Source: an uncultured Coriobacteriaceae bacterium
Lineage (GTDB): Bacteria > Actinomycetota > Coriobacteriia > Coriobacteriales > Atopobiaceae
Reading direction: 5' to 3'
Length of the DNA stretch: 63,168 nt
Assembly: GCA_902795065.1 (NCBI GenBank)
Contig: CADBJR010000013.1
Coordinates: 1 to 63,168 of the forward strand
How positions within the stretch are numbered: position 1 is the stretch's first letter; each line of letters starts with the position of its first letter. Below, piece by piece: positions 5,521 to 17,858 of this stretch. The position numbers were made by a program, and so were the translations under genes. The notes under the pieces are model-generated. The model was not told the DNA's origin. It made no database searches and saw only the letters and a list, made by a program, of their open reading frames with translations.

Positions 5521-6546
5521 ATGGCCCGGTGGACAGTTGCATCGACTGCCGTCACCTTCGGATATGTGTCTCCGAGGGCGGTCGAGCGCCTTGAGAAGGC
5601 AGGGTGCAAGGTGCGGCTCAATCCATACGGCCGGCCGCTCTCCACGCAGGAGATGGTCGAGTTCGCAGGCAAGGCAGATGCGATCGTACTGGGCAACGAC
5701 ATCCTGTCCGCGAAGTGCATCCGCAAGCTCAAGAAGCTCAAGCTCATCGCGCGCTACGGCGTGGGCTTCGACGGCGTCGACCTCCACGAAGCCCTCATGA
5801 ACAATATCCAGGTGACCGCGGCGCCCGCATCGAACCGGGAGGAGACGGCCGATTTCACGATGGGCCTGATCCTGAACCTCGCCCGCCATATCTCGGTGAT
5901 GTCGAACAACCTCAAGGCGGGCGTCTGGGAGAAGCGCGCCGGAATAAGCCTGTACGGCAAGACGATCGGCATCATCGGCGTGGGCCAGGTCGGCTCTGCG
6001 GTCGCGCGCCGGGCGATGGGCTTCGGGCTCGACGTCCTCGGCTACGACATCGACCAGCGCTCGGAACCTACGGTCTACGGGCTCGTGTACACGACGCTGA
6101 ACGATCTGCTCAGGCGCTCGGATATCGTCACCCTCCACCTGCCGTTGAACTCGAGCTCGAAGAACCTCATTGGGGCGAAGGAGCTCCGGCTCCTCAAGCC
6201 GAGCGCGATGCTCATCAACACCGCCCGATCGGGCGTGATCCGCGAGGAGGCGCTCGAGAAGGCGCTCATGACCAAGCAGCTCGCAGCCTATGCCACCGAC
6301 GTCTTCGATGAGGAGCCGCCTGTTGCGAAGGATTACTTCAGATACGACAACGTGCTGGTTACCCCGCATGTCGCAGGCTCGACGATAGAATCCGCCGACC
6401 GCATGGGCGACATCGTCGTCGACAACATCCTCGCGGCGATGGACGGTCTCGAACCACCCGACCTGGTTACTCCGAAGAACCTCTTCGCGGATTCCCTCGG
6501 CGTCCATCGGCCGATGGCGTATCTCGCCCCGCTCGACGAGAGATAG
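5521..6546 (+). CDS. D-2-hydroxyacid dehydrogenase, NAD-binding
   Basis: A 341-residue protein of the phosphoglycerate/hydroxypyruvate dehydrogenase family. The Rossmann motif is GVGQVGSAVA, the substrate-binding arginine is in NTARSGVIRE, and the catalytic glutamate and histidine lie in VFDEEPP and VTPHVAGST. The start at 5521 has AGGAGA upstream and gives a normal N-terminal domain. The 94-base gap before it contains a small hairpin (CGCTATC 5465-5471 with GATAGCG 5479-5485). It may belong to the same regulon as the preceding sugar-acid genes, but its substrate is not deducible. A C-terminal tail of about 25 residues follows the last conserved helix. Confidence 0.82.
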   Translation: MARWTVASTAVTFGYVSPRAVERLEKAGCKVRLNPYGRPLSTQEMVEFAGKADAIVLGNDILSAKCIRKLKKLKLIARYGVGFDGVDLHEALMNNIQVTAAPASNREETADFTMGLILNLARHISVMSNNLKAGVWEKRAGISLYGKTIGIIGVGQVGSAVARRAMGFGLDVLGYDIDQRSEPTVYGLVYTTLNDLLRRSDIVTLHLPLNSSSKNLIGAKELRLLKPSAMLINTARSGVIREEALEKALMTKQLAAYATDVFDEEPPVAKDYFRYDNVLVTPHVAGSTIESADRMGDIVVDNILAAMDGLEPPDLVTPKNLFADSLGVHRPMAYLAPLDER

Positions 6547-6563
6547 GGCGTCGTGCAGAGGCG

Positions 6564-7604
6564 TCAAATCAGTCCGAACATCCCGGCGGCGGTTCCGAAC
6601 GTGAAATGGATGAGCGCGAGGCCCCAGATGGAGCGCTGCTTGCGGTAGATGACGCCGAACACGCCCAGAAGCACCGCAGCACCCAGCATGAAGTAGGGGC
6701 TGTAGTGCAGATGGATTGCGGCGAACATCAGGGTGGAGATCGCGATGGCGATGGTCTCGCTCTTCTCGTGTGCGATGACGTGCGTCAGGCTCTCCTGCAT
6801 GATGCCGCGCGAGAGGAACTCCTGGACGACGGCGGTGAGGGCGTAGGGGAAGATGCGCGCGGGTCCCATCCACGACGGGTCGTAGAACGTCTCGGGATGG
6901 ACGATGATTCCCGGCGCGACCCGCATGAGGATGAGCTTCGCCACGGCGAAGAACGCGATGAGGCCGAGGCTGGCGATGCCGTCAACCTTGAGGTTGTGGG
7001 CGAGGTTCTTCGTGCCGAGGCCGAGGTCGGCGAGCGTGAGCGAGGTGTTCTTGTAGACGACGAAGCCGAGGATCACGCCGAGCACCTCGAGGACGATCGT
7101 GAAGGTGGGCGGCTCGAACGGCCTTCCGTAGTAGTTCCAGAATGCGTAGCAGAAGACCGCGAGGCACAGGTAGACGATGCCCGAGAGGAACACGAACGTC
7201 GACTCGCGGCGCAGATGCTCGAGGCGCTCCTCCTCGGAGACGTCCGTGCACGTGATGACGAGGTACGAGCCCCCGTCGGACTCCTCGACAAGCGAGCTCG
7301 TGACGAGCAGCATGTAGCGCGTGCCGTCAGGCGCCGTGAACGGGCAGCGGCCCAGATTGCGGACGCCCTTGTTGTGGACCGCCTGCAGGAACACCTCGTA
7401 GAACTCGTCGTTCTCCGCCGCGGCGTGGGCGGCGAAGTACTGCCCGAAGGGCTTGCCCACGTAGGGGCCGATGCCCATGATGCTGCACGCGGGGTCGTTG
7501 GCATAGACGATCGTGCCGCGCGGGCCCAGCGCGATGGCGCAGCCGGGCATGTCGGCGAGTACGCGGTCGCCGTAGGCGCTGGCGGTCGTGGTCAGGGTGT
7601 CCAT
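6564..7604 (-). CDS. PAS-sensor / CPBP (CAAX-type) membrane protease fusion
   Basis: A 346-residue protein. Residues 10-125 form a PAS-like domain (strand AIALGPRGTIVYAND, a later DGTRYMLLVTS strand and a conserved TCTDVSEEE end). A short helix leads into a membrane region from about residue 136 with the CPBP/Abi signature: QEFLSRG (E262, R266), the AAIHLHYS motif (H298) and LALIHFTFG (H333). CPBP proteins are intramembrane metalloproteases such as Rce1. GAGGAGG sits seven bases before the ATG at 7604, which rules out the much longer upstream reading frame. A sensory PAS domain on a CPBP protease is unusual. Confidence 0.8.
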   Translation of the reverse strand: MDTLTTTASAYGDRVLADMPGCAIALGPRGTIVYANDPACSIMGIGPYVGKPFGQYFAAHAAAENDEFYEVFLQAVHNKGVRNLGRCPFTAPDGTRYMLLVTSSLVEESDGGSYLVITCTDVSEEERLEHLRRESTFVFLSGIVYLCLAVFCYAFWNYYGRPFEPPTFTIVLEVLGVILGFVVYKNTSLTLADLGLGTKNLAHNLKVDGIASLGLIAFFAVAKLILMRVAPGIIVHPETFYDPSWMGPARIFPYALTAVVQEFLSRGIMQESLTHVIAHEKSETIAIAISTLMFAAIHLHYSPYFMLGAAVLLGVFGVIYRKQRSIWGLALIHFTFGTAAGMFGLI

Positions 7605-7669
7605 GCTGAGCCTCCTCGATGCAGGTGCTCCTGCCATTCTGCCACAACCGGTCGGCGGTCGAGCGCTGG

Positions 7670-8542
7670 TTATCCGAGCAGCGCCGCGACCTCTCCCAGA
7701 CGGCTCTCGAAGCTCACGCCGCGCATCTCGAAATCGGGCTGCTCGCGCGTGATGACCATGGCGTCGCGCACGAAGTCGCCGGCGAACGCGGTCGCGTCGT
7801 AGAGCGAGCGTCCGCACATGATCGCCGCGAGCAGCGCGCTCGCGTAGAGGTCGCCCGTGCCGTGGAGCATGTAGGGCAGCAGCTCGCTCGTGAGCTCGGC
7901 GAACTCGATGTCGGCGCCGCAGAGGTAGTTGCGGATGAGGCCGTCGCCGCGCACCACGCCCTTGAGCACGACGGTCTTCGCGCCCATGGCGAGCAGCGCG
8001 TCGGCGTAGTCGCGGATCTTCTCGACGCTCACGTCCTGGCCCTCGTAGGGGATGCCGGTGAGGATGGATGCCTCGGTGAGGTTGGGGGTGAGGACGTCGG
8101 CGCCGTCGACGAGGGCGGCCATCGCCTGGCAGAGCTCCTCGGTGTAGGTGGCGTAGCGCTGGCCGCCGTCGCCCATCACAGGGTCGACGAAGCGGATCGC
8201 CTGCGGATGCTCGCGATAGAGGCGCTGGATGGCGGCGACCTGCTCGGCTGCCCCGAGGAAGCCGGAGTAGACCGCGTCGACCTCGACCTTCTCGGCGACC
8301 CATGCGTCGAGGTAGGGCTCGAGCATCTCGGTGGTGTCGTGCATATGGAAGACCGGGTAGCGCGTGTGCGCCGAGAAGAGCCCGGTGGGGACGGGGCAGA
8401 CATCGCAGCCCGCGGCGGAGAGCACGGGGATGGCCACGCCGAGCGAGCACTTGCCGTAGCCGCACAGATCATGAACCGCAGCGATGCGGGGGATGTAGTT
8501 GGCCTTGCGATCGTAGAGATGAACGTCATGTGCCGTTCGCAT
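7670..8542 (-). CDS. Pyridoxamine/pyridoxal kinase (PfkB-like, PdxY type)
   Basis: A 290-residue vitamin B6 kinase. Conserved points are the N-terminal HDLCGYGKCSL loop, VDPVMGDGG, LTPNLTEA, VVLKG and the GTGDLYAS anion-hole/catalytic aspartate motif. It phosphorylates pyridoxal, pyridoxamine or pyridoxine in salvage of PLP. AAGGAG lies eight bases before the ATG at 8542. It is divergent from deoC and faces the same way as the PAS-CPBP gene, with a 65-base gap between them. Confidence 0.9.
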   Translation of the reverse strand: MRTAHDVHLYDRKANYIPRIAAVHDLCGYGKCSLGVAIPVLSAAGCDVCPVPTGLFSAHTRYPVFHMHDTTEMLEPYLDAWVAEKVEVDAVYSGFLGAAEQVAAIQRLYREHPQAIRFVDPVMGDGGQRYATYTEELCQAMAALVDGADVLTPNLTEASILTGIPYEGQDVSVEKIRDYADALLAMGAKTVVLKGVVRGDGLIRNYLCGADIEFAELTSELLPYMLHGTGDLYASALLAAIMCGRSLYDATAFAGDFVRDAMVITREQPDFEMRGVSFESRLGEVAALLG

Positions 8543-9315: not shown

Positions 9316-9321
9316 CTATAA
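9316..9321 (+). promoter_or_regulatory. Candidate -10 element for the MurT-like gene
   Basis: A perfect TATAAT lies just after the deoC stop and covers the first base of the in-frame ATG at 9321. A -10 here would put the RNA start near 9328, which excludes the ATG at 9321 and supports the GTG at 9354, which has its own AAAGGGG ribosome site. No clear -35 is visible. Confidence 0.5.
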
Positions 9322-9353
9322 TGGTGGATGCTGGAGCCGGCGAAAGGGGTCCC

Positions 9354-11567
9354 GTGTCACAGTCCAAGAAGAGCGCGCGCTTCCGTCTGGCGATGGGAGC
9401 GGGCAAAGCGGCCAACGCCGTCCTGACCGCCCTCAAGCGCAAGGGCGGGCAGCTTCCCGGCGTCATCGCCGAGAAGATCGACCCCGACTTCCTCGCGCAC
9501 ATCGGAAAGCCCGGGCGCATCGTCTTCGTGACCGGCACCAACGGCAAGACCACCACGACCAACCTCCTCGACGACCTGCTCGCCGACAACGGCTTCGACC
9601 TGGTCACCAACCGGGCGGGCAGCAACACGATCAACGGCATCGAGAGCTCGCTCATCAAGAACGCGGATCTCTCGGGCAACCAGCGCCTGCAGGTCGCGTG
9701 CATGGAGCTCGACGAGCTCTCGAGCAGGCTCGTCCTGCCGCACGTCACGCCCGACCTGCTGCTCGTCTGCAACCTCTACCGCGACTCGTTCATGCGCAAC
9801 GCGAATCCGGACTACATCTTCAGCGTGCTCTCCTCGAGCATCTCCCCGATGACCGAGCTCGTGCTGAACGCCGACGACCTGATCTCGTGCCGTCTCGCCC
9901 CGCAGGCGGAGAAGCGCACGTACTACTCGATTGGCCGCCTCGCCGACGATACCGACGGCCCGCAGGGCATCGCGTGCGACCTGACCGCGTGCCCCGAGTG
10001 CGGATCGGCGCTCGCCTACGACTACTGCCACCTCCGCCATCTCGGCAAGGCGCGCTGCACGCACTGCGGCTTCACCAACTCGGAGCCCGACTTCGAGGTG
10101 GTGCGCGTCGACCGAGAGGCGGGCACCTTCACCGTGCGCGAGAACCGCGAGCCCGGCGCCCCCGAGCACGACTACCGCATCGCGGCCTACACGATCACCA
10201 ACCTCTACAACCTGCTTGCCGCCGTGACCGTGGCGCGTAGGATGGGCGTCTCCGCCGAGGCGATCGCCGCCTCGCTCGACCGCGGCATCAACATCACGAA
10301 GCTGCGCTACAGCGACGAGGAGATCTGCGGCGTGCGCCTGGTCAACGTCGCGGCCAAGGGCGAGAACAGCACCGCGACCTCCACGGCAATCCAGACCATC
10401 TGCCGCGAGCCGGGGCGCAAGGCCGTGGCCTTCATCATGAGCGACTACTATCTGGCCACCAACCCCTACTCGTCGGAGTACACGGGCTGGTACTACCAGA
10501 CCGACTTCGAGTACCTCGTCGACCCGCTCGTCGAGCAGATCGTGGTGGTGGGGGCGCGCGGCGAGGACCTGATGCTGCGCCTTCTGCTCGCGGGCATCGA
10601 TCCCGCGCGCATCAGGCTCGTCCCCGATGCCGAGGCCGCCGCACGCGCGATCCGCCTCGACGGCATCGACAGCGTTGTCGTCGCCTACGACATCTTCAAC
10701 GGAGCCCAGGTCGAGCGCCTGAACGCCGGGGTGCGCGAGCGCCTCGAGAAGGGCGATAGCGTATCTGCGGAGGCGCCGGCGCGCGGCATGGCGGGTGTGC
10801 CCGTTCCCGCCGACCAGGGTGCCGGCACCACCGTCGAGATCCTCTATCCCGAGTTCGGCAACCAGGCTGGTGACAACGGCAACGCCCTCTACCTGCGCGC
10901 ATGCCTTCCCGGAGCGGATTTCATCGAGACGCCGTACGGCGCGGAGCCCGCATTCGCGACCCGCGACGTCTCCGCAGTCGTCCTCGCGAGCATGACCGAG
11001 CGCCACCAGCAGCTCGCCGCCGAGGCGCTCCGGCCCTACGCGGCGCGTCTCGCCGAGCTCGCCGACGCGGGCGTCCCGATGCTGTTCACCCATAGCGCCG
11101 CCGAGCTGCTCGGCAGCTCCTTCGGCACGCCCGGCGGGGGAGAGGCGCAGGGGCTCTCGATCCTGCCCTTCTCGACGCGCACCGACATGCCCAAGCGCTA
11201 CCTCTGCTCCACCGTGGGCTCCTTCGAGCCGGGTGACGGCAGCGACGCCATCGAGCTTCTGGGCTTCAAGATCCAGTTCACCCAGACGACCGCGACGGAC
11301 GACGCCGCTCCGTTCTGCAGCCTCGAGCGCGGCTGGGGCCGCTCCGAGGGCGATACGCTCGAGGGATTCCGCCGCGGCGGCCTCATCGCGACGTGGATGC
11401 TCGGCCCGATCCTGCCGACCAACCCTTCGTTCGCACGCTGGTTCTGCGAGCGGATCGCGGGCGCTCCCGTCGTGCTCGCCTTCGAGGACGAGGCACGTGC
11501 GGCATACGACGTGCGCCGCGCCGACCTCACGCACCCGCTTCCCAAGGGCAAGTCCATCAACCCGTAA
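9354..11567 (+). CDS. MurT-like Mur ligase fused to a GatD-like amidotransferase domain lacking catalytic residues
   Basis: A 737-residue protein. Residues 1-470 resemble MurT: Mur-ligase P-loop GTNGKTT (61-67), a Cys4 zinc ribbon (C213, C216, C235, C238) inserted in the central domain, and a DUF1727-like C-terminal domain. Residues 493-720 align with GatD: the GDNGN signature (507-510), the GVPMLF strand and the GPIL motif. In GatD the nucleophile lies in AICGG and its histidine in YFHGPIL; here the equivalent stretches read LFTHSAAELLG (577-587) and TWMLGPIL (680-687), so both are absent. The MurT aspartate segment, normally ADGxDxSW, is also changed (near 369-380). MurT and GatD are normally separate and amidate lipid II D-Glu. 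This looks like a non-glutaminase paralog. The GTG start is chosen from the TATAAT at 9316. Confidence 0.82.
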   Translation: MSQSKKSARFRLAMGAGKAANAVLTALKRKGGQLPGVIAEKIDPDFLAHIGKPGRIVFVTGTNGKTTTTNLLDDLLADNGFDLVTNRAGSNTINGIESSLIKNADLSGNQRLQVACMELDELSSRLVLPHVTPDLLLVCNLYRDSFMRNANPDYIFSVLSSSISPMTELVLNADDLISCRLAPQAEKRTYYSIGRLADDTDGPQGIACDLTACPECGSALAYDYCHLRHLGKARCTHCGFTNSEPDFEVVRVDREAGTFTVRENREPGAPEHDYRIAAYTITNLYNLLAAVTVARRMGVSAEAIAASLDRGINITKLRYSDEEICGVRLVNVAAKGENSTATSTAIQTICREPGRKAVAFIMSDYYLATNPYSSEYTGWYYQTDFEYLVDPLVEQIVVVGARGEDLMLRLLLAGIDPARIRLVPDAEAAARAIRLDGIDSVVVAYDIFNGAQVERLNAGVRERLEKGDSVSAEAPARGMAGVPVPADQGAGTTVEILYPEFGNQAGDNGNALYLRACLPGADFIETPYGAEPAFATRDVSAVVLASMTERHQQLAAEALRPYAARLAELADAGVPMLFTHSAAELLGSSFGTPGGGEAQGLSILPFSTRTDMPKRYLCSTVGSFEPGDGSDAIELLGFKIQFTQTTATDDAAPFCSLERGWGRSEGDTLEGFRRGGLIATWMLGPILPTNPSFARWFCERIAGAPVVLAFEDEARAAYDVRRADLTHPLPKGKSINP

Positions 11568-11719: not shown

Positions 11720-12493
11720 ATGAACCGCGAACCCGTCTCCTGGTGGAGCGAGCACCTGCAGAAGGATATCAACCTGATCGTCTACGGCGACTCGGGCTAC
11801 CCGATCATCGCCTTCCAGGCGCAGGGCTCCAAGTGCAACAACTTCGAGGATTTCGGCATGATCGACACCCTCTCCGACTATCTCGAGGAGGGCATCATCC
11901 AGATCTTCTCGGTGGATAACTTCGACGAGGACAGCTGGTCCGCCGTTGGAGCAGACCCCGCATGGCGCGCCGAGCGCCAGGAGGCGTACTTCTCGTTCGT
12001 CACCGAGGAGCTCGTCCCGTTCGTGCACGACTACGCCAACACCGACCTGCGCCCGCTTGCGACGGGCTGCTCGATGGGCGCCACCCACGCCGCGATCGCC
12101 GTGCTGCGCCGCCCGGACCTCTTCCAGGGATGCATCGCGCTCTCCGGCGTCTACGACGCGGCGTACTTCTTCGGCGACTACATGGACGGCACCCTCTACG
12201 AGAACTCGCCGGTCACGTTCATGCCCAACATGCCCTACGACCACCCCTATATCGAGCTCTACTGCCAGCGCCAGATCGTGCTCTGCGTGGGCCAGGGCGC
12301 CTGGGAGGACGAGGGCATCCGCACCGAGCGCATCCTCGACGAGGCGTTCCGCAAGCGCGGCATCTCGGCATGGTGCGACTACTGGGGCTTCGACGTCAAC
12401 CATGACTGGCCGTGGTGGAAGAAGCAGATCCGCTACTTCCTCCCCATCGTGCTCGACGACATCAAGGACATGCTCGTAGCCGGAACGTACTAG
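11720..12493 (+). CDS. Esterase-family alpha/beta hydrolase
   Basis: A 257-residue protein of the putative-esterase (esterase D-like) family. The nucleophile elbow is ATGCSMGATHA (G-C-S-M-G), and a candidate catalytic histidine is in VNHDWPWWKKQ near the C-terminus. There is no signal peptide, so it acts in the cytoplasm. GGAGG is positioned seven bases before the ATG at 11720. An ATP-grasp gene follows after 21 bases and the two probably form one unit. The substrate is unknown. Confidence 0.78.
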   Translation: MNREPVSWWSEHLQKDINLIVYGDSGYPIIAFQAQGSKCNNFEDFGMIDTLSDYLEEGIIQIFSVDNFDEDSWSAVGADPAWRAERQEAYFSFVTEELVPFVHDYANTDLRPLATGCSMGATHAAIAVLRRPDLFQGCIALSGVYDAAYFFGDYMDGTLYENSPVTFMPNMPYDHPYIELYCQRQIVLCVGQGAWEDEGIRTERILDEAFRKRGISAWCDYWGFDVNHDWPWWKKQIRYFLPIVLDDIKDMLVAGTY

Positions 12494-12514
12494 CCCGCTG
12501 AAGCGAGGAACGAC

Positions 12515-13714
12515 ATGAACTTCGTTTTCATCTCGCCCCAATTCCCCGAGACCTACTGGAATTGGTGCGATCGACTGCGCCGCAACGGCGTGAACGTGCT
12601 CGGCATCGGCGACACGCCCTACGACAACATCCCCTGGCAGCTCAAGAACGTGCTCACCGAGTACTACTGGCTGCCGTCGCTCGAGGACTACGACCAGGTC
12701 TACCGCGCCGTCGCGTTCTTCTCGTGGAAGTACGGCAAGATCGACTGGCTCGAGTCGAACAACGAGTACTGGCTGGGCCAGGACGCGCGCCTGCGCGACG
12801 ACTTCAACATCACCACGGGAGCCGGCGCCGAGCAGGTCGCCGTGTGGCAGAGCAAGGCCGGCATGAAGCCGCTCTACGCGGCGGGCAACGTGCCGACCGC
12901 GCGCCAGGTGCGCGTCGCGAGCGCCGATGATGCGGAAGCCGCCCGCGCGTTCGCCGTGCAGGCGGGCTACCCGCTCTTCGCGAAGCCCGAGGTAGGTGTG
13001 GGCTCCGGCGGTGCGTTCAAGATCGCCGACGAGGCGGCGCTCGAGGACTTCCTCGCAGCCGAGAAGGATGGGTCCTACGTCCTCGAGGAGTTCGTCACGG
13101 GCGACATCTGCAGCTACGACGCGATCGTCGACAGCAACGGCGACCCGCTCTTCGAGAACCAGGAGGAGTTCCCGCCGTCGATGGAGGAGGTCGTGCGCCT
13201 CCAGCTCGACGTGAGCTACTTCTCTCGTCCCGCCGTCGATCCCAAGCTCCAGGCGCTCGGCCGCGCCGCGGTCAAGTCGTTCGGCCTCAAGAGCCGCTTC
13301 GTGCACATGGAGTTCTTCCGCCTCAAGGAGGCCAAGGAGGGCCTCGGCGACGTGGGCGACTACGTCGGCCTCGAGGTCAACGTGCGCCCGCCCGGAGGCT
13401 TCACGCCCGACATCCTCAACTTCGCCCATTCGACCGACGTCTACCAGATCTGGGCGGACATGGTGTGCTTCGACGAACGCCGTCTGCCCGAGAGCGAAGA
13501 CCAGGGCTTCTGCGTGTACGCCAGCAGGCGCGACATCTACGCCTATGCGCACTCCGACGCCGAGGTGCGCGAGCGCTATGGCGGGGCGATCCGCATGAGC
13601 GGACGCATGGCCTACGCGCTCTCCGACGACCTCGGAAACTACTTCTACATGGCCCGCTTCGGCACCGAGGCAGAGCTCGAGGAGTTCGTCTCCTTCGTGC
13701 AGACCCAGGCATAG
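12515..13714 (+). CDS. ATP-grasp family ligase, substrate unknown
   Basis: A 399-residue ATP-grasp enzyme. After an N-terminal Rossmann-like pre-domain (residues 1-110) comes the ATP-binding region with YPLFAKPEVGVGSGG (glycine-rich loop and lysine), SYVLEEFVTGDICSYD, and the metal-binding GLEVNVRPPGGFTPD (E and N ligands). Such enzymes form an acyl-phosphate and join it to an amine or thiol. Close partners are an esterase-type hydrolase upstream and a membrane protein downstream. No biotin or purine-pathway hallmark is visible. The specific reaction is not deducible. Confidence 0.75.
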   Translation: MNFVFISPQFPETYWNWCDRLRRNGVNVLGIGDTPYDNIPWQLKNVLTEYYWLPSLEDYDQVYRAVAFFSWKYGKIDWLESNNEYWLGQDARLRDDFNITTGAGAEQVAVWQSKAGMKPLYAAGNVPTARQVRVASADDAEAARAFAVQAGYPLFAKPEVGVGSGGAFKIADEAALEDFLAAEKDGSYVLEEFVTGDICSYDAIVDSNGDPLFENQEEFPPSMEEVVRLQLDVSYFSRPAVDPKLQALGRAAVKSFGLKSRFVHMEFFRLKEAKEGLGDVGDYVGLEVNVRPPGGFTPDILNFAHSTDVYQIWADMVCFDERRLPESEDQGFCVYASRRDIYAYAHSDAEVRERYGGAIRMSGRMAYALSDDLGNYFYMARFGTEAELEEFVSFVQTQA

Positions 13715-14652: not shown

Positions 14653-15267
14653 TTGACCAAGCTGGAGAACGAGGCCGCTGGCGACTTCAACGCGCGCGCC
14701 GCCCATTCGCGGAGCGTCGCGCGCATGGGCATCATCGCCGCCATCTATGCGGCGCTCACCCTCGCCACCATGCTCTTCCTCGGCGGCCTCGCCTGGGGTC
14801 CCGTCCAGTTCCGCATCTCCGAGGCGGTCTGCGTGCTCGCGCTCTTCACCGCCGACGCGATCCCCGGCCTCGCCCTCGGCTGCGCCATCGCCAACATCGC
14901 CAACATCGTCATCGCCGGCCTCGGCACGCTCGGCCTGCTCGACGTGGTCTTCGGCACCCTGGCGACCGTGCTCGCGGCCCTCTTCACCTGGCGTTTCCGC
15001 GAGCGCCCCACGCTCGCCATCGCGGGCCCGGTCATCGCGAACGCCCTCATCGTCCCCGCGTACCTTCCGATCCTGCTCAAGGGCATGGGGTTCTACACGA
15101 TCCCCTTCACGTCCATCTCGCTCGACGACAACTACCTGCTGATGTATCTGTTCGGCCTCATAACCACGGGCATCGGGGAGGCGGTCGTCATGTACGTGCT
15201 CGGCCTGCCGCTCGCCCGGGCCCTCTCGCAGACCACGCTCTTCAAGTCGATGGGGGAGGATCGGTAG
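14653..15267 (+). CDS. queT: QueT-type ECF transporter S component (queuosine precursor)
   Basis: A 204-residue membrane protein with about six helices matching the QueT (DUF988) family. Recognisable features are AAIYAALT in the first helix and GPVQFRISEAVCVLALF after it. The family binds queuosine precursors such as preQ1/preQ0 and uses the shared EcfAAT energising module, which is not encoded here. The start is a TTG with AAGG about nine bases upstream; no in-frame ATG gives the complete first helix with a ribosome site. A TATATT at about 14613 may be the -10. I saw no clear preQ1 riboswitch in the short leader. Confidence 0.82.
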   Translation: MTKLENEAAGDFNARAAHSRSVARMGIIAAIYAALTLATMLFLGGLAWGPVQFRISEAVCVLALFTADAIPGLALGCAIANIANIVIAGLGTLGLLDVVFGTLATVLAALFTWRFRERPTLAIAGPVIANALIVPAYLPILLKGMGFYTIPFTSISLDDNYLLMYLFGLITTGIGEAVVMYVLGLPLARALSQTTLFKSMGEDR

Positions 15268-15272
15268 GGCAG

Positions 15273-16658
15273 ATGCGCAGCTGGTTCGCACACCACCGCT
15301 CGTTCACCGTGCGCATCGCCCTCATCGTGGGCGTCGTGGTGCTGCTCCTGCTCCTCTCGCTCGGCATCGCCAACGAGGACATCATCGCCACCATGATCTC
15401 GGGCGCGGGCCTCGCGGTCGTCATCGTCATCGGCGGCACCATCCTGCTCGTGCCCGATGCCGCGCGCCTGCAGGCGACCGAGCGCACCCTCATGATGGCG
15501 TCGAACACGCTCGAGCACGTCCGCGGCGGCCTCACAGCCGAGAGCTGCAACATCATCTGCCAGCTGCTGCTCCCCGAGACGTCCGCAGCGGGCGTCGCGA
15601 TCACCGACACCGAGAAGGTCGTCGCCTACGCGGGCGAGCTGCCCGCGGACTTCCCGCCCGGCTCGAGCAACACGGCGCCCACGCGCGAGGTGCTCGGAAG
15701 CAAGCGCGTCGAGACGTTCGTCGCCATGGACTCGAGCGACCAGAACTACCGCCCCTTCATCCTCGGCGCCGAGCAGCCCGGCAGGTCGTTCGGCATCATC
15801 GTGCCCCTCTTGATCCAGGACCGCGCGGTGGGCACGATCAAGCTCTACTACCATCAGGGCGTCCAGATCGACCGCACCCAGCTCGCCATCGCGAAGGGCA
15901 TCGGCGAGCTGCTCTCCACGCAGCTCTCTGCCTACGAGCTCGACCGCCAGGCCGAGCTCACGGCGCGCGCCGAGGTCAAGGCGCTGCAGGCGCAGATCAA
16001 CCCCCACTTCCTCTTCAACTCGCTCAACACCATCGCGTCGCTCACCCGCACCGACCCCACGAAGGCGCGCGACCTGCTGCGCGAGTTCTCGGTCTACTTC
16101 AGGCGCACGCTCGACAATCCCGAGACGAGCATCCCGCTCTCGAGCGAGCTCGAGCAGACCCTGCGCTACCTCAATATCGAGAAGGCGCGCTTCGGCGAGG
16201 ACCGCATCATCGTGAGCGAGTCCGTCCAGGACGGTTGCGGCGACGTGCTCGTCCCGGCGTTCCTCGTGCAGCCCATCGTCGAGAACGCGGTGCGCCATGC
16301 CATGCGCGACGAGGGCCCCCTGCATATCGCCATCGACGTAGCGGCCGACGCAAGCGATATACTGGTATCTGTCACGGACGACGGCATGGGCATGGACGAA
16401 GAGGTCGCCGCCAGTGTTCTCGAGGAGACGGCTCCCCCGTCCTCCACGGGCGGAGGCGGAACCGGCATCGCCCTCAAGAACGTCGCGGAGCGCGTCCAGC
16501 GCTTCTTCGGCGAAGGCTCGGGCGTCGATATCGTTTCGAAACTGGGGGAGGGGACCTGCGTCACCCTCCGCCTCGGCGGTGCCGCCAAGCTGCTCGCGGA
16601 ACGCGACGCGGGCACGGAGGCGTCGGAGACCGCGGATCTGCTCGCCACACTGGAGTAA
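15273..16658 (+). CDS. LytS/YehU-type sensor histidine kinase
   Basis: A 461-residue kinase with two N-terminal transmembrane helices (about 12-32 and 44-62), a GAF-like domain (80-225), and the His_kinase/HATPase pair of the LytS class. The phospho-accepting histidine is H245 in QINPHFLFNSLNTI. The N-box is QPIVENAVRHA, and the G-boxes are VTDDGMGM and GTGIALKN. It starts five bases after queT and is followed 12 bases later by its LytTR response regulator, so the three genes form one operon. The ligand is unknown. Confidence 0.88.
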   Translation: MRSWFAHHRSFTVRIALIVGVVVLLLLLSLGIANEDIIATMISGAGLAVVIVIGGTILLVPDAARLQATERTLMMASNTLEHVRGGLTAESCNIICQLLLPETSAAGVAITDTEKVVAYAGELPADFPPGSSNTAPTREVLGSKRVETFVAMDSSDQNYRPFILGAEQPGRSFGIIVPLLIQDRAVGTIKLYYHQGVQIDRTQLAIAKGIGELLSTQLSAYELDRQAELTARAEVKALQAQINPHFLFNSLNTIASLTRTDPTKARDLLREFSVYFRRTLDNPETSIPLSSELEQTLRYLNIEKARFGEDRIIVSESVQDGCGDVLVPAFLVQPIVENAVRHAMRDEGPLHIAIDVAADASDILVSVTDDGMGMDEEVAASVLEETAPPSSTGGGGTGIALKNVAERVQRFFGEGSGVDIVSKLGEGTCVTLRLGGAAKLLAERDAGTEASETADLLATLE

Positions 16659-16670
16659 GGTGGTTCGAAC

Positions 16671-17387
16671 ATGCGCGCAATGATCGTCGATGATGAGGCT
16701 CCCGCCCGCTCCGAGCTGAGGTTTCTCCTCGAGGAGACAGGCCGTATCGACACCATCGTCGAGGCGGCGAGCGCCCGCGAGGCCGTCGAGCGGATGATGG
16801 AGGTCCGCGCGGACGTGCTCTTCCTCGACATCCATATGCCCAAGACCTCCGGCATGCAGCTCGCCGAGGCGCTCCACAAGCTCAAGAATCCCCCCGCGGT
16901 CATCTTCGTCACGGCCTACAGCGAGTACGCGCTCGAGGCCTTCGACGTGAACGCGGTCGACTACCTCATGAAGCCCGTCGAGAGCGACCGCCTCAACCAG
17001 GCGCTCGACAAGGTGTCCGTGCGCGCCAAGCCGCAGCCCACGAGCAAGTCCACGGTCGAGCGCATCCCCGTGGTCAAGAGCGGCCGCAAGGTGCTCGTGC
17101 CGATCGACCAGATCCGCTACATCGAGGCCAAGGACGACTACTCCTGCATCTACACCGACACCGACCGCTACCTCTCCACGATCTCGCTCGCCAAGCTCGA
17201 GCAGAAGCTCGCGCCCAACGGCTTCTTCCGCGTCCATCGCGGCTACATCGTGAACCTCGAGTACGTCGAGGACGTCGAGGTCGTGTCGTCCGGCATCCTC
17301 CAGCTCGGCGTGAACGGCATCGAGGGCAAGAAGATCTCCGTCTCGCGCCGCCGCGTCGTCGCGCTCAAGCGCGCCCTCGGCCTCTAG
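16671..17387 (+). CDS. LytTR-type response regulator
   Basis: A 238-residue regulator. The receiver domain (1-118) carries the acidic pair D7/D8 and phospho-acceptor D53 in LFLDIHMPK; the conserved threonine and lysine follow in FVTAYSEYA and YLMKPV. The C-terminal LytTR DNA-binding domain (about 138-238) shows IRYIEAKDDYSCIYT and FFRVHRGYIVNL. It pairs with the preceding LytS-type kinase. Target promoters cannot be identified in this window. Confidence 0.9.
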   Translation: MRAMIVDDEAPARSELRFLLEETGRIDTIVEAASAREAVERMMEVRADVLFLDIHMPKTSGMQLAEALHKLKNPPAVIFVTAYSEYALEAFDVNAVDYLMKPVESDRLNQALDKVSVRAKPQPTSKSTVERIPVVKSGRKVLVPIDQIRYIEAKDDYSCIYTDTDRYLSTISLAKLEQKLAPNGFFRVHRGYIVNLEYVEDVEVVSSGILQLGVNGIEGKKISVSRRRVVALKRALGL

Positions 17388-17396
17388 GGTCCGCGC

Positions 17397-17858
17397 GTGG
17401 CGAAGCTGCGGTTCGACATCGTCTCCGATACGCACGGCTACCTCTCGCCTGCGCTCCTGTCCGCACTCGATGGTGCCGACGCGATCGTGCATGCGGGCGA
17501 CATCTGCTCGCCGTCCGACTACCGTACGCTCGAGGACATCGCCCCGCTGCACCTGTGCCTCGGCAACAACGACTGGGCATACGACTACGGCCTCCAGATC
17601 AAGAAGACCTGCCTGTTCTACGGCGGCGGCGTGCTCTGGGAGGTCAACCACTACCGCGAGCGCCTCAAGCTGGCGGAGTGCGACATCGCGGTGTGCGGCC
17701 ACACGCACCGTCCCTCCATCGACAACTTCGGCAGGATCATCGTCATGAACCCCGGCAGCCCCACCTTCCCGCGCGGCATGCTCGGCCCCACGATCGGCCG
17801 TGTCATCATCGAGGATGGGACCATCCTCTCCGCCGAGATCGTGCAGCTCAAGAACTAG
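17397..17858 (+). CDS. YfcE/MJ0936-type metallophosphodiesterase
   Basis: A 153-residue calcineurin-like phosphoesterase. Metal-binding motifs are SDTHGY (D-x-H), VHAGDI, LGNNDW, CGHTHRP and the closing MNPGSPTFPRG. Family members hydrolyse simple phosphodiesters in the presence of Mn2+. It starts with GTG nine bases after the response-regulator stop and is probably the last gene of that operon. The length is normal for the family. Confidence 0.87.
   Translation: MAKLRFDIVSDTHGYLSPALLSALDGADAIVHAGDICSPSDYRTLEDIAPLHLCLGNNDWAYDYGLQIKKTCLFYGGGVLWEVNHYRERLKLAECDIAVCGHTHRPSIDNFGRIIVMNPGSPTFPRGMLGPTIGRVIIEDGTILSAEIVQLKN

Follow-up and report, generated by a model that had tools for sequence, protein, structure and literature searches.

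The stretch of DNA that we analyzed (63,168 nt from an uncultured Coriobacteriaceae bacterium, here called the window) encodes a fused MurT-GatD protein that, like its relatives, has lost its glutaminase residues and retained its ligase, a conclusion that is well supported. The glutaminase loss is old and lineage-wide, and it marks a monophyletic Coriobacteriales lineage under purifying selection (the dead lineage). The enzyme of this lineage probably completes cell-wall precursors using ammonia, or some other small amine, that it draws from the surroundings and not from glutamine. Our preferred reading, to which we assign a probability of roughly one half, is that the window protein would act as an ATP-dependent lipid II D-Glu ligase on free ammonia, with the dead GatD as its obligatory partner.

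Loss of the glutaminase residues and retention of the ligase

The gene is a single open frame running from a GTG codon at 9354 to the stop at 11567, with the sequence AAAGGGG immediately 5' of it; translation could alternatively begin at an ATG at 9321 (Table 1). The earlier note had described MurT and GatD as joined in one chain, and we indeed found one 737-aa ORF whose two parts both match their counterparts in the PDB. MurT chains were the best PDB matches (residues 16-440 with S. aureus MurT, E 2.8e-48), and the protein passed the MurT_C threshold (PF08353, 52.1 bits against a cut-off of 25). The scores for the NCBIfam equivalogs NF045635 and NF052464 (147.8 and 185.4 bits) were below the 800-bit cut-off, to which we attach little weight because canonical Coriobacteriales MurTs fall short as well. 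In the GatD part, phmmer aligned residues 544-701 with S. aureus GatD (E 1e-8), residues 491-695 matched S. pyogenes GatD, and NCBIfam concurred on the assignment. The AlphaFold model of the window protein had a pLDDT of 88.2 and a pTM of 0.86. Its MurT part superimposed on S. pyogenes MurT (9sqj) with a Z of 28.1 and an rmsd of 3.8 over 395 residues, and its GatD part on S. pneumoniae GatD (6fqb_E) with a Z of 26.6 and an rmsd of 2.3 over 224 residues. The GatD part is thus predicted by the model to have a normal GatD fold (class I GATase, GatD type). The active-site geometry was assessed from alignments and fold scores, not from model coordinates.

The catalytic residues of the S. aureus enzyme are Cys94 and His189 of GatD and Asp349 of MurT (PMC6113224), and GatD Arg128 serves in glutamine capture (PMC5871853). 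His580 of the window protein was placed opposite Cys94 and Leu683 opposite His189 by phmmer to PDB, by MAFFT (73 GatD rows plus two PDB anchors) and by hhalign profile-profile comparison alike. The earlier note had read the nucleophile elbow as FTHSA and the catalytic-His segment as WMLGPIL, and these concordant alignments bore it out: neither the Cys nor the His is present at its active-site position. The scaffold signatures GDNGN and GPIL, which it had reported as kept, were both present in the family alignment. Among the 33 intact dead-lineage GatDs, the Cys position is occupied by Gly in 23 and by His in 10, and the His position by Ile, Leu or Ala (a 34th row, a frame-shifted MAG fragment, lies outside this set). 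None of the 33 keeps the catalytic Cys or His, versus 39 out of 39 canonical GatDs from the same bacterial family that keep both, so that the triad loss is not a chance event. The gate/cap Tyr is Ala or Gly across the lineage and ENHGGRT has become KIQFTQ. At the Arg128 column Lys (12), Arg (6) and Glu (3) are the leading residues, with Lys in the window protein, in an alignment made uncertain by a neighbouring insertion with an invariant Arg. The GDNGN Asp was present in 31 of 34 sequences, and new near-invariant residues (Q, E, R, K, Q and W) appear in the dead pocket region. At the level of sequence, the composite triad of Cys, His and Asp has been lost together with the gate Tyr, and the glutamine-capturing Arg appears not to be conserved across the lineage.

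On the MurT side, the residues K59, T60, N85, E108, R133, D134, R138 and N267 (S. aureus numbering), reported as important for the ligase (PMC6113224, PMC6085368), were kept in 31-33 of 33 dead-lineage MurTs, as were the four Cys of the ribbon. Asn85, in the GAN motif, has been proposed to bind the acceptor carboxylate (PMC6085368), and E108 is a Mg ligand in S. aureus MurT (PMC6113224). D137 and E141, loop residues whose removal has a minor effect (PMC6113224, PMC6085368), were lost. The interface Trp (W352) was present in 33/33, and the GatD Gly and Pro that face it were kept in 33-34 of 34; this Trp and Gly are the conserved interface pair in pneumococcus (PMC6085368). The intact P-loop and Cys4 ribbon described earlier were found at residues 61-66 (GTNGKT) and 213/216/235/238, and the ADGxDxSW segment is altered as the earlier note had it, with Tyr376 aligned to Asp349. 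Across the lineage this Asp is replaced by Tyr (28) or Phe (5). The MurT face towards GatD was rebuilt further, with KNPxG changed to KGEN, D355 to Gln and a new invariant Glu, and the DNAAD stretch, which has been compared with the amino-acid-binding motif of MurE (PMC6113224), gave way to a longer segment with new conservation, whose end reads E-Y/F-x-G-W. Of the 22 positions in the C-terminal region that are invariant in canonical MurTs, 10 were lost and 10 kept; for the N-terminal/P-loop region the figures were 4 lost and 20 kept of 27. As far as sequence comparison goes, selection has maintained the GatD fold, the conserved MurT-contact residues and the ligase's ATP/acceptor site.

Table 1. 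Features of the MurT-GatD gene and its surroundings in the window
Feature	Position	Strand	Basis
Fused MurT-pseudoGatD gene, 737 aa	9354..11567	+	GTG start, RBS-like AAAGGGG at 9343-9349
MurT-like Mur ligase part, ~residues 16-466, Mur_ligase_M and MurT_C	9399..10751	+	Family and PDB matches, model
P-loop GTNGKT, residues 61-66, intact	9534..9551	+	MurT family alignment
Asn91, equivalent to conserved MurT Asn85 (GAN motif), kept 33/33	9624..9626	+	MurT family alignment
Glu118, equivalent to S. aureus MurT E108, kept 33/33	9705..9707	+	MurT family alignment
Cys4 zinc-ribbon-like insertion (C213, C216, C235, C238), intact	9990..10067	+	MurT family alignment
KGENSTA in place of canonical KNPxG; KGxN conserved in dead lineage	10356..10376	+	MurT family alignment
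SSEYTGW, Tyr376 replaces triad Asp349, interface Trp379 kept	10470..10490	+	MurT family alignment
Linker between MurT and GatD parts	10752..10823	+	Model pLDDT ~55 in residues 471-480
GatD-like class I glutaminase fold (predicted) without catalytic residues	10824..11564	+	Model vs 6fqb
GNQAGDNGN, GDNGN kept, Ala505 replaces conserved gate/cap Tyr (S. pneumoniae Y30, S. aureus Y17)	10857..10883	+	GatD family alignment
FTHSA, degenerate nucleophile elbow, His580 in place of Cys94	11085..11099	+	Three alignments
KIQFTQ replacing canonical ENHGGRT	11268..11285	+	GatD family alignment
WMLGPIL, Leu683 in place of His189, GPIL kept	11394..11414	+	Three alignments
Slot neighbours: QueT-like, LytS-type histidine kinase, LytTR regulator, YfcE-type phosphodiesterase	14653..17855	+	Conserved gene order

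Distribution and chromosomal setting of the dead lineage

Dead-type MurT-GatD was found in 41 Coriobacteriales genomes, among them Lancefieldella, Atopobium-like genomes, many Collinsella and rumen Atopobiaceae, with cultured strains included. Among 396 sampled genomes of the phylum, only those of Coriobacteriales contained the lineage; the two catalytic positions were read in the 12 best-scoring GatDs of other orders, and all 12 retain Cys and His. Trees placed the dead lineage on one side of a branch, apart from canonical Coriobacteriales MurTs, with a FastTree support of 0.967, and the same split in a smaller tree set had an SH-aLRT of 95. Codon comparisons gave dN/dS values of 0.09-0.30, with the MurT and GatD halves alike. 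The most basal member (L178, the second dead pair of genome G037) has a long branch and an unsure position in the tree, and its MurT retains the triad Asp; this position is Asn in family f9 and Tyr or Phe in the core. The L178 pair (5830-8140, contig C136) is very divergent and carries VTGNAQEL and STWAMGPALV. G037 thus holds two dead types, and an intact GatD was not found there.

Following a suggestion of the earlier note, we searched the window's own genome (97% complete, 53 contigs) for a second, intact murT-gatD pair and found no further MurT or GatD; the sole GATase_3 match was HisH. By profile search, canonical GatD was not detected in 39 of the 41 dead-type genomes and occurred beside the dead type only in G051 and G191. 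G191 and G204 each carry two different dead pairs. Two divergent dead pairs stand in tandem in L053/L177 (Collinsella vaginalis) and in L176 (G204), differing in the D349 replacement (Phe versus Tyr) and in MurT R133, which is Gly in one. A close copy of the gene in a MAG (L039, 700-2945) has a frame break near residue 565-580 that is possibly an assembly error. A defence role of the window protein was considered and dropped, as PADLOC gave no match.

Dead pairs are either fused (the window clade and the C. tanakaei group) or split as murT-gatD (Lancefieldella and others, many Collinsella), with the reversed order gatD-murT in some Collinsella (L048, L050, L051, L052). Fusion of intact pairs likewise occurs in several genera, spread over three Coriobacteriales families. 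The fusion, which the earlier note had presented as part of the novelty, is therefore incidental, since numerous dead pairs are encoded by two genes and numerous intact ones are fused.

The chromosomal slot of the dead pair is conserved, with the order NifJ, (ArcC), murT-gatD, (QueT, GT2), histidine kinase, LytTR and phosphodiesterase. The canonical split pairs that we inspected were located outside this slot. An intact fused MurT-GatD in inverted orientation occupied it in all nine genomes examined, from genus g33 plus G058 of a second genus (L126, L183-L186, L189, L190, L192, L193), and G057, with a dead pair in the slot, belongs to the same genus as G058. The gene order suggests, as its simplest reading, that one type replaced the other in place. 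Occupation of one slot by dead and intact pairs also suggests that they can stand in for each other and serve a shared need. The carbamate kinase ArcC was considered as a supplier of ammonia; although next to the pair in 11 of 28 loci, it is not specific, because NifJ-ArcC adjacency occurs without MurT (L140) and ArcC is present elsewhere in the window's own genome. Directly 3' of the MurT-GatD gene (11720-13714) lie esterase-like and ATP-grasp-like ORFs with no NCBIfam match, common to the nearest relatives (L039, L041) and absent from the other loci.

Ammonia and the competing explanations

In the ammonia-dependent scheme, MurT would still phosphorylate the alpha-carboxylate of D-Glu in lipid II (or lipid I), and the dead GatD would complete the active site as an obligatory structural partner. 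Free ammonia, perhaps entering via the opened dead pocket, would take the place of glutamine as nitrogen source, and the product would again be D-isoglutamine. We favor this scheme because of two precedents. The S. aureus MurT/GatD C94G complex lost glutamine-dependent lipid II amidation but kept NH3-dependent amidation at pH 8.5 (Munch et al. 2012, PMC3266927), and human CPS1, which lost its glutaminase Cys, takes free ammonia (PMC4655335). The natural Cys-to-Gly change, present in 23 of the 33 intact relatives, is the same as C94G. Since the C94G complex amidates with NH3 and MurT alone was never active (PMC3266927), the dead GatD would still be needed as a partner. We also counted in favor the retained ligase and partner-contact residues, the 39 of 41 genomes without canonical GatD, the slot sharing, the dN/dS values and the confident model. 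Against it we counted that the rebuilt MurT face exceeds what a simple ammonia user would need, and that the canonical enzyme takes NH3 at pH 8.5 only, not at 7.5 (PMC3266927). Glutamine synthetase, present in 66/66 genomes checked, was a further point against; a shortage of glutamine accordingly does not account for the loss.

A different amine, such as an amino acid, might instead be joined to the D-Glu alpha-carboxyl, or another acceptor used, with the dead pocket or the rebuilt MurT C-domain binding the amine. The uneven loss of MurT invariants towards the C-terminus, the replacement of the MurE-like DNAAD and the new near-invariants of the pocket are consistent with this, as are the divergent dead pairs in tandem and the two genomes with a dead and an intact pair together. 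The product may indeed differ, because G051 and G191 keep canonical GatD and G191 and G204 have two dead pairs. However, the slot can be taken by an intact canonical fusion, and the recorded wall chemistry is just L-Lys-D-Asp (L. parvula, A4alpha, PMC3035223), with position 2 unremarkable or maybe never examined. The peptidoglycan types found, this one and A4beta L-Orn-D-Asp of Olsenella uli, were not decisive between the readings. We therefore regard another amine or acceptor as possible but rather unlikely. The bolder proposal, that the lineage represents a novel type of lipid II ligase adding a non-ammonia amine to the stem-peptide D-Glu with the dead glutaminase as an amine-binding or gating domain, is somewhat less likely again; if true, common Coriobacteriales of the gut and mouth would carry a peptidoglycan modification not yet described.

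The earlier note had offered a regulatory pseudo-amidotransferase, or use of free ammonia or another acceptor; the latter has become the leading reading and the former is not favored. A regulatory or scaffolding complex that makes no product and senses lipid II or a nucleotide would fit the complete triad loss and the LytS/LytTR two-component system adjoining in many loci. It is nonetheless improbable, because the dead-type MurT is usually the only MurT in its genome and 31-33 of the 33 MurTs retain the residues for ATP, Mg and acceptor. We consider it very improbable that a cryptic glutaminase persists with relocated catalytic residues, for instance with His580 or others taking over. The GDNGN Asp, and the His that stands in for the nucleophile within the window's subclade, would agree with it, but most relatives have Gly there, and the elbow, oxyanion region, Cys and Arg128 (the last in an uncertain alignment) are all altered; in S. 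aureus, C94A, H189A or R128A alone abolishes glutaminase activity (PMC5871853). Sequencing error, pseudogene formation or relaxed decay has next to no likelihood: although one close MAG copy (L039) is frame-shifted, decay of the lineage is contradicted by the dN/dS values and by the fact that over 30 assemblies, cultured strains among them, show the same changes.

MurT-GatD is described as a universal feature of Actinobacteria, and several pathogens require it for viability (PMC6085368). In the literature that we found it is always a glutamine-dependent pair, with which a lineage that dismantled but retained its glutaminase contrasts; no link between MurT-GatD and Coriobacteria appeared in the literature searched. 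The dead lineage offers a test of whether GatD has a second, structural job, and may illustrate how an amidotransferase turns into an ammonia- or amine-dependent ligase. The graded loss of the Asp, from L178 through f9 to the core, may represent natural intermediates, with the tree place of L178 uncertain. Unusual wall chemistry would be predicted in Lancefieldella and Collinsella.

Comparison with known systems

The closest known systems are the canonical MurT/GatD lipid II isoglutaminyl synthases of S. aureus, S. pneumoniae and S. pyogenes (PDB 6gs2, 6fqb, 9sq9). The Mur-ligase middle and C domains, Cys4 insertion, P-loop, Mg and acceptor residues, GatD fold, interface Trp and Gly/Pro are common to both. 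In contrast to these, the dead lineage is without the Cys/His/Asp triad, its glutamine-capturing Arg appears not to be conserved, its gate Tyr is Ala or Gly and its KNPxG and DNAAD segments are rebuilt; the window protein, in addition, is one chain. The intact fused MurT-GatDs of other Coriobacteriales (L126 of G087, L127/L128 of family f3, L136 of G343) are alike in domain order and fusion, and those of g33 and G058 share the chromosomal slot, but they form a separate clade with the triad present (ICGG/ICGS, YLHGP, ADGxDxSW). S. aureus GatD C94G carries the Cys-to-Gly change of most natural relatives and retains NH3-dependent amidation, whereas it is a single change studied in vitro with NH3 activity at pH 8.5 only. 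Human CPS1 likewise kept its class I glutaminase domain after loss of the Cys and its synthetase takes free ammonia; the synthetase itself is unrelated, so that the likeness is an analogy in mechanism and not homology of the whole enzyme.
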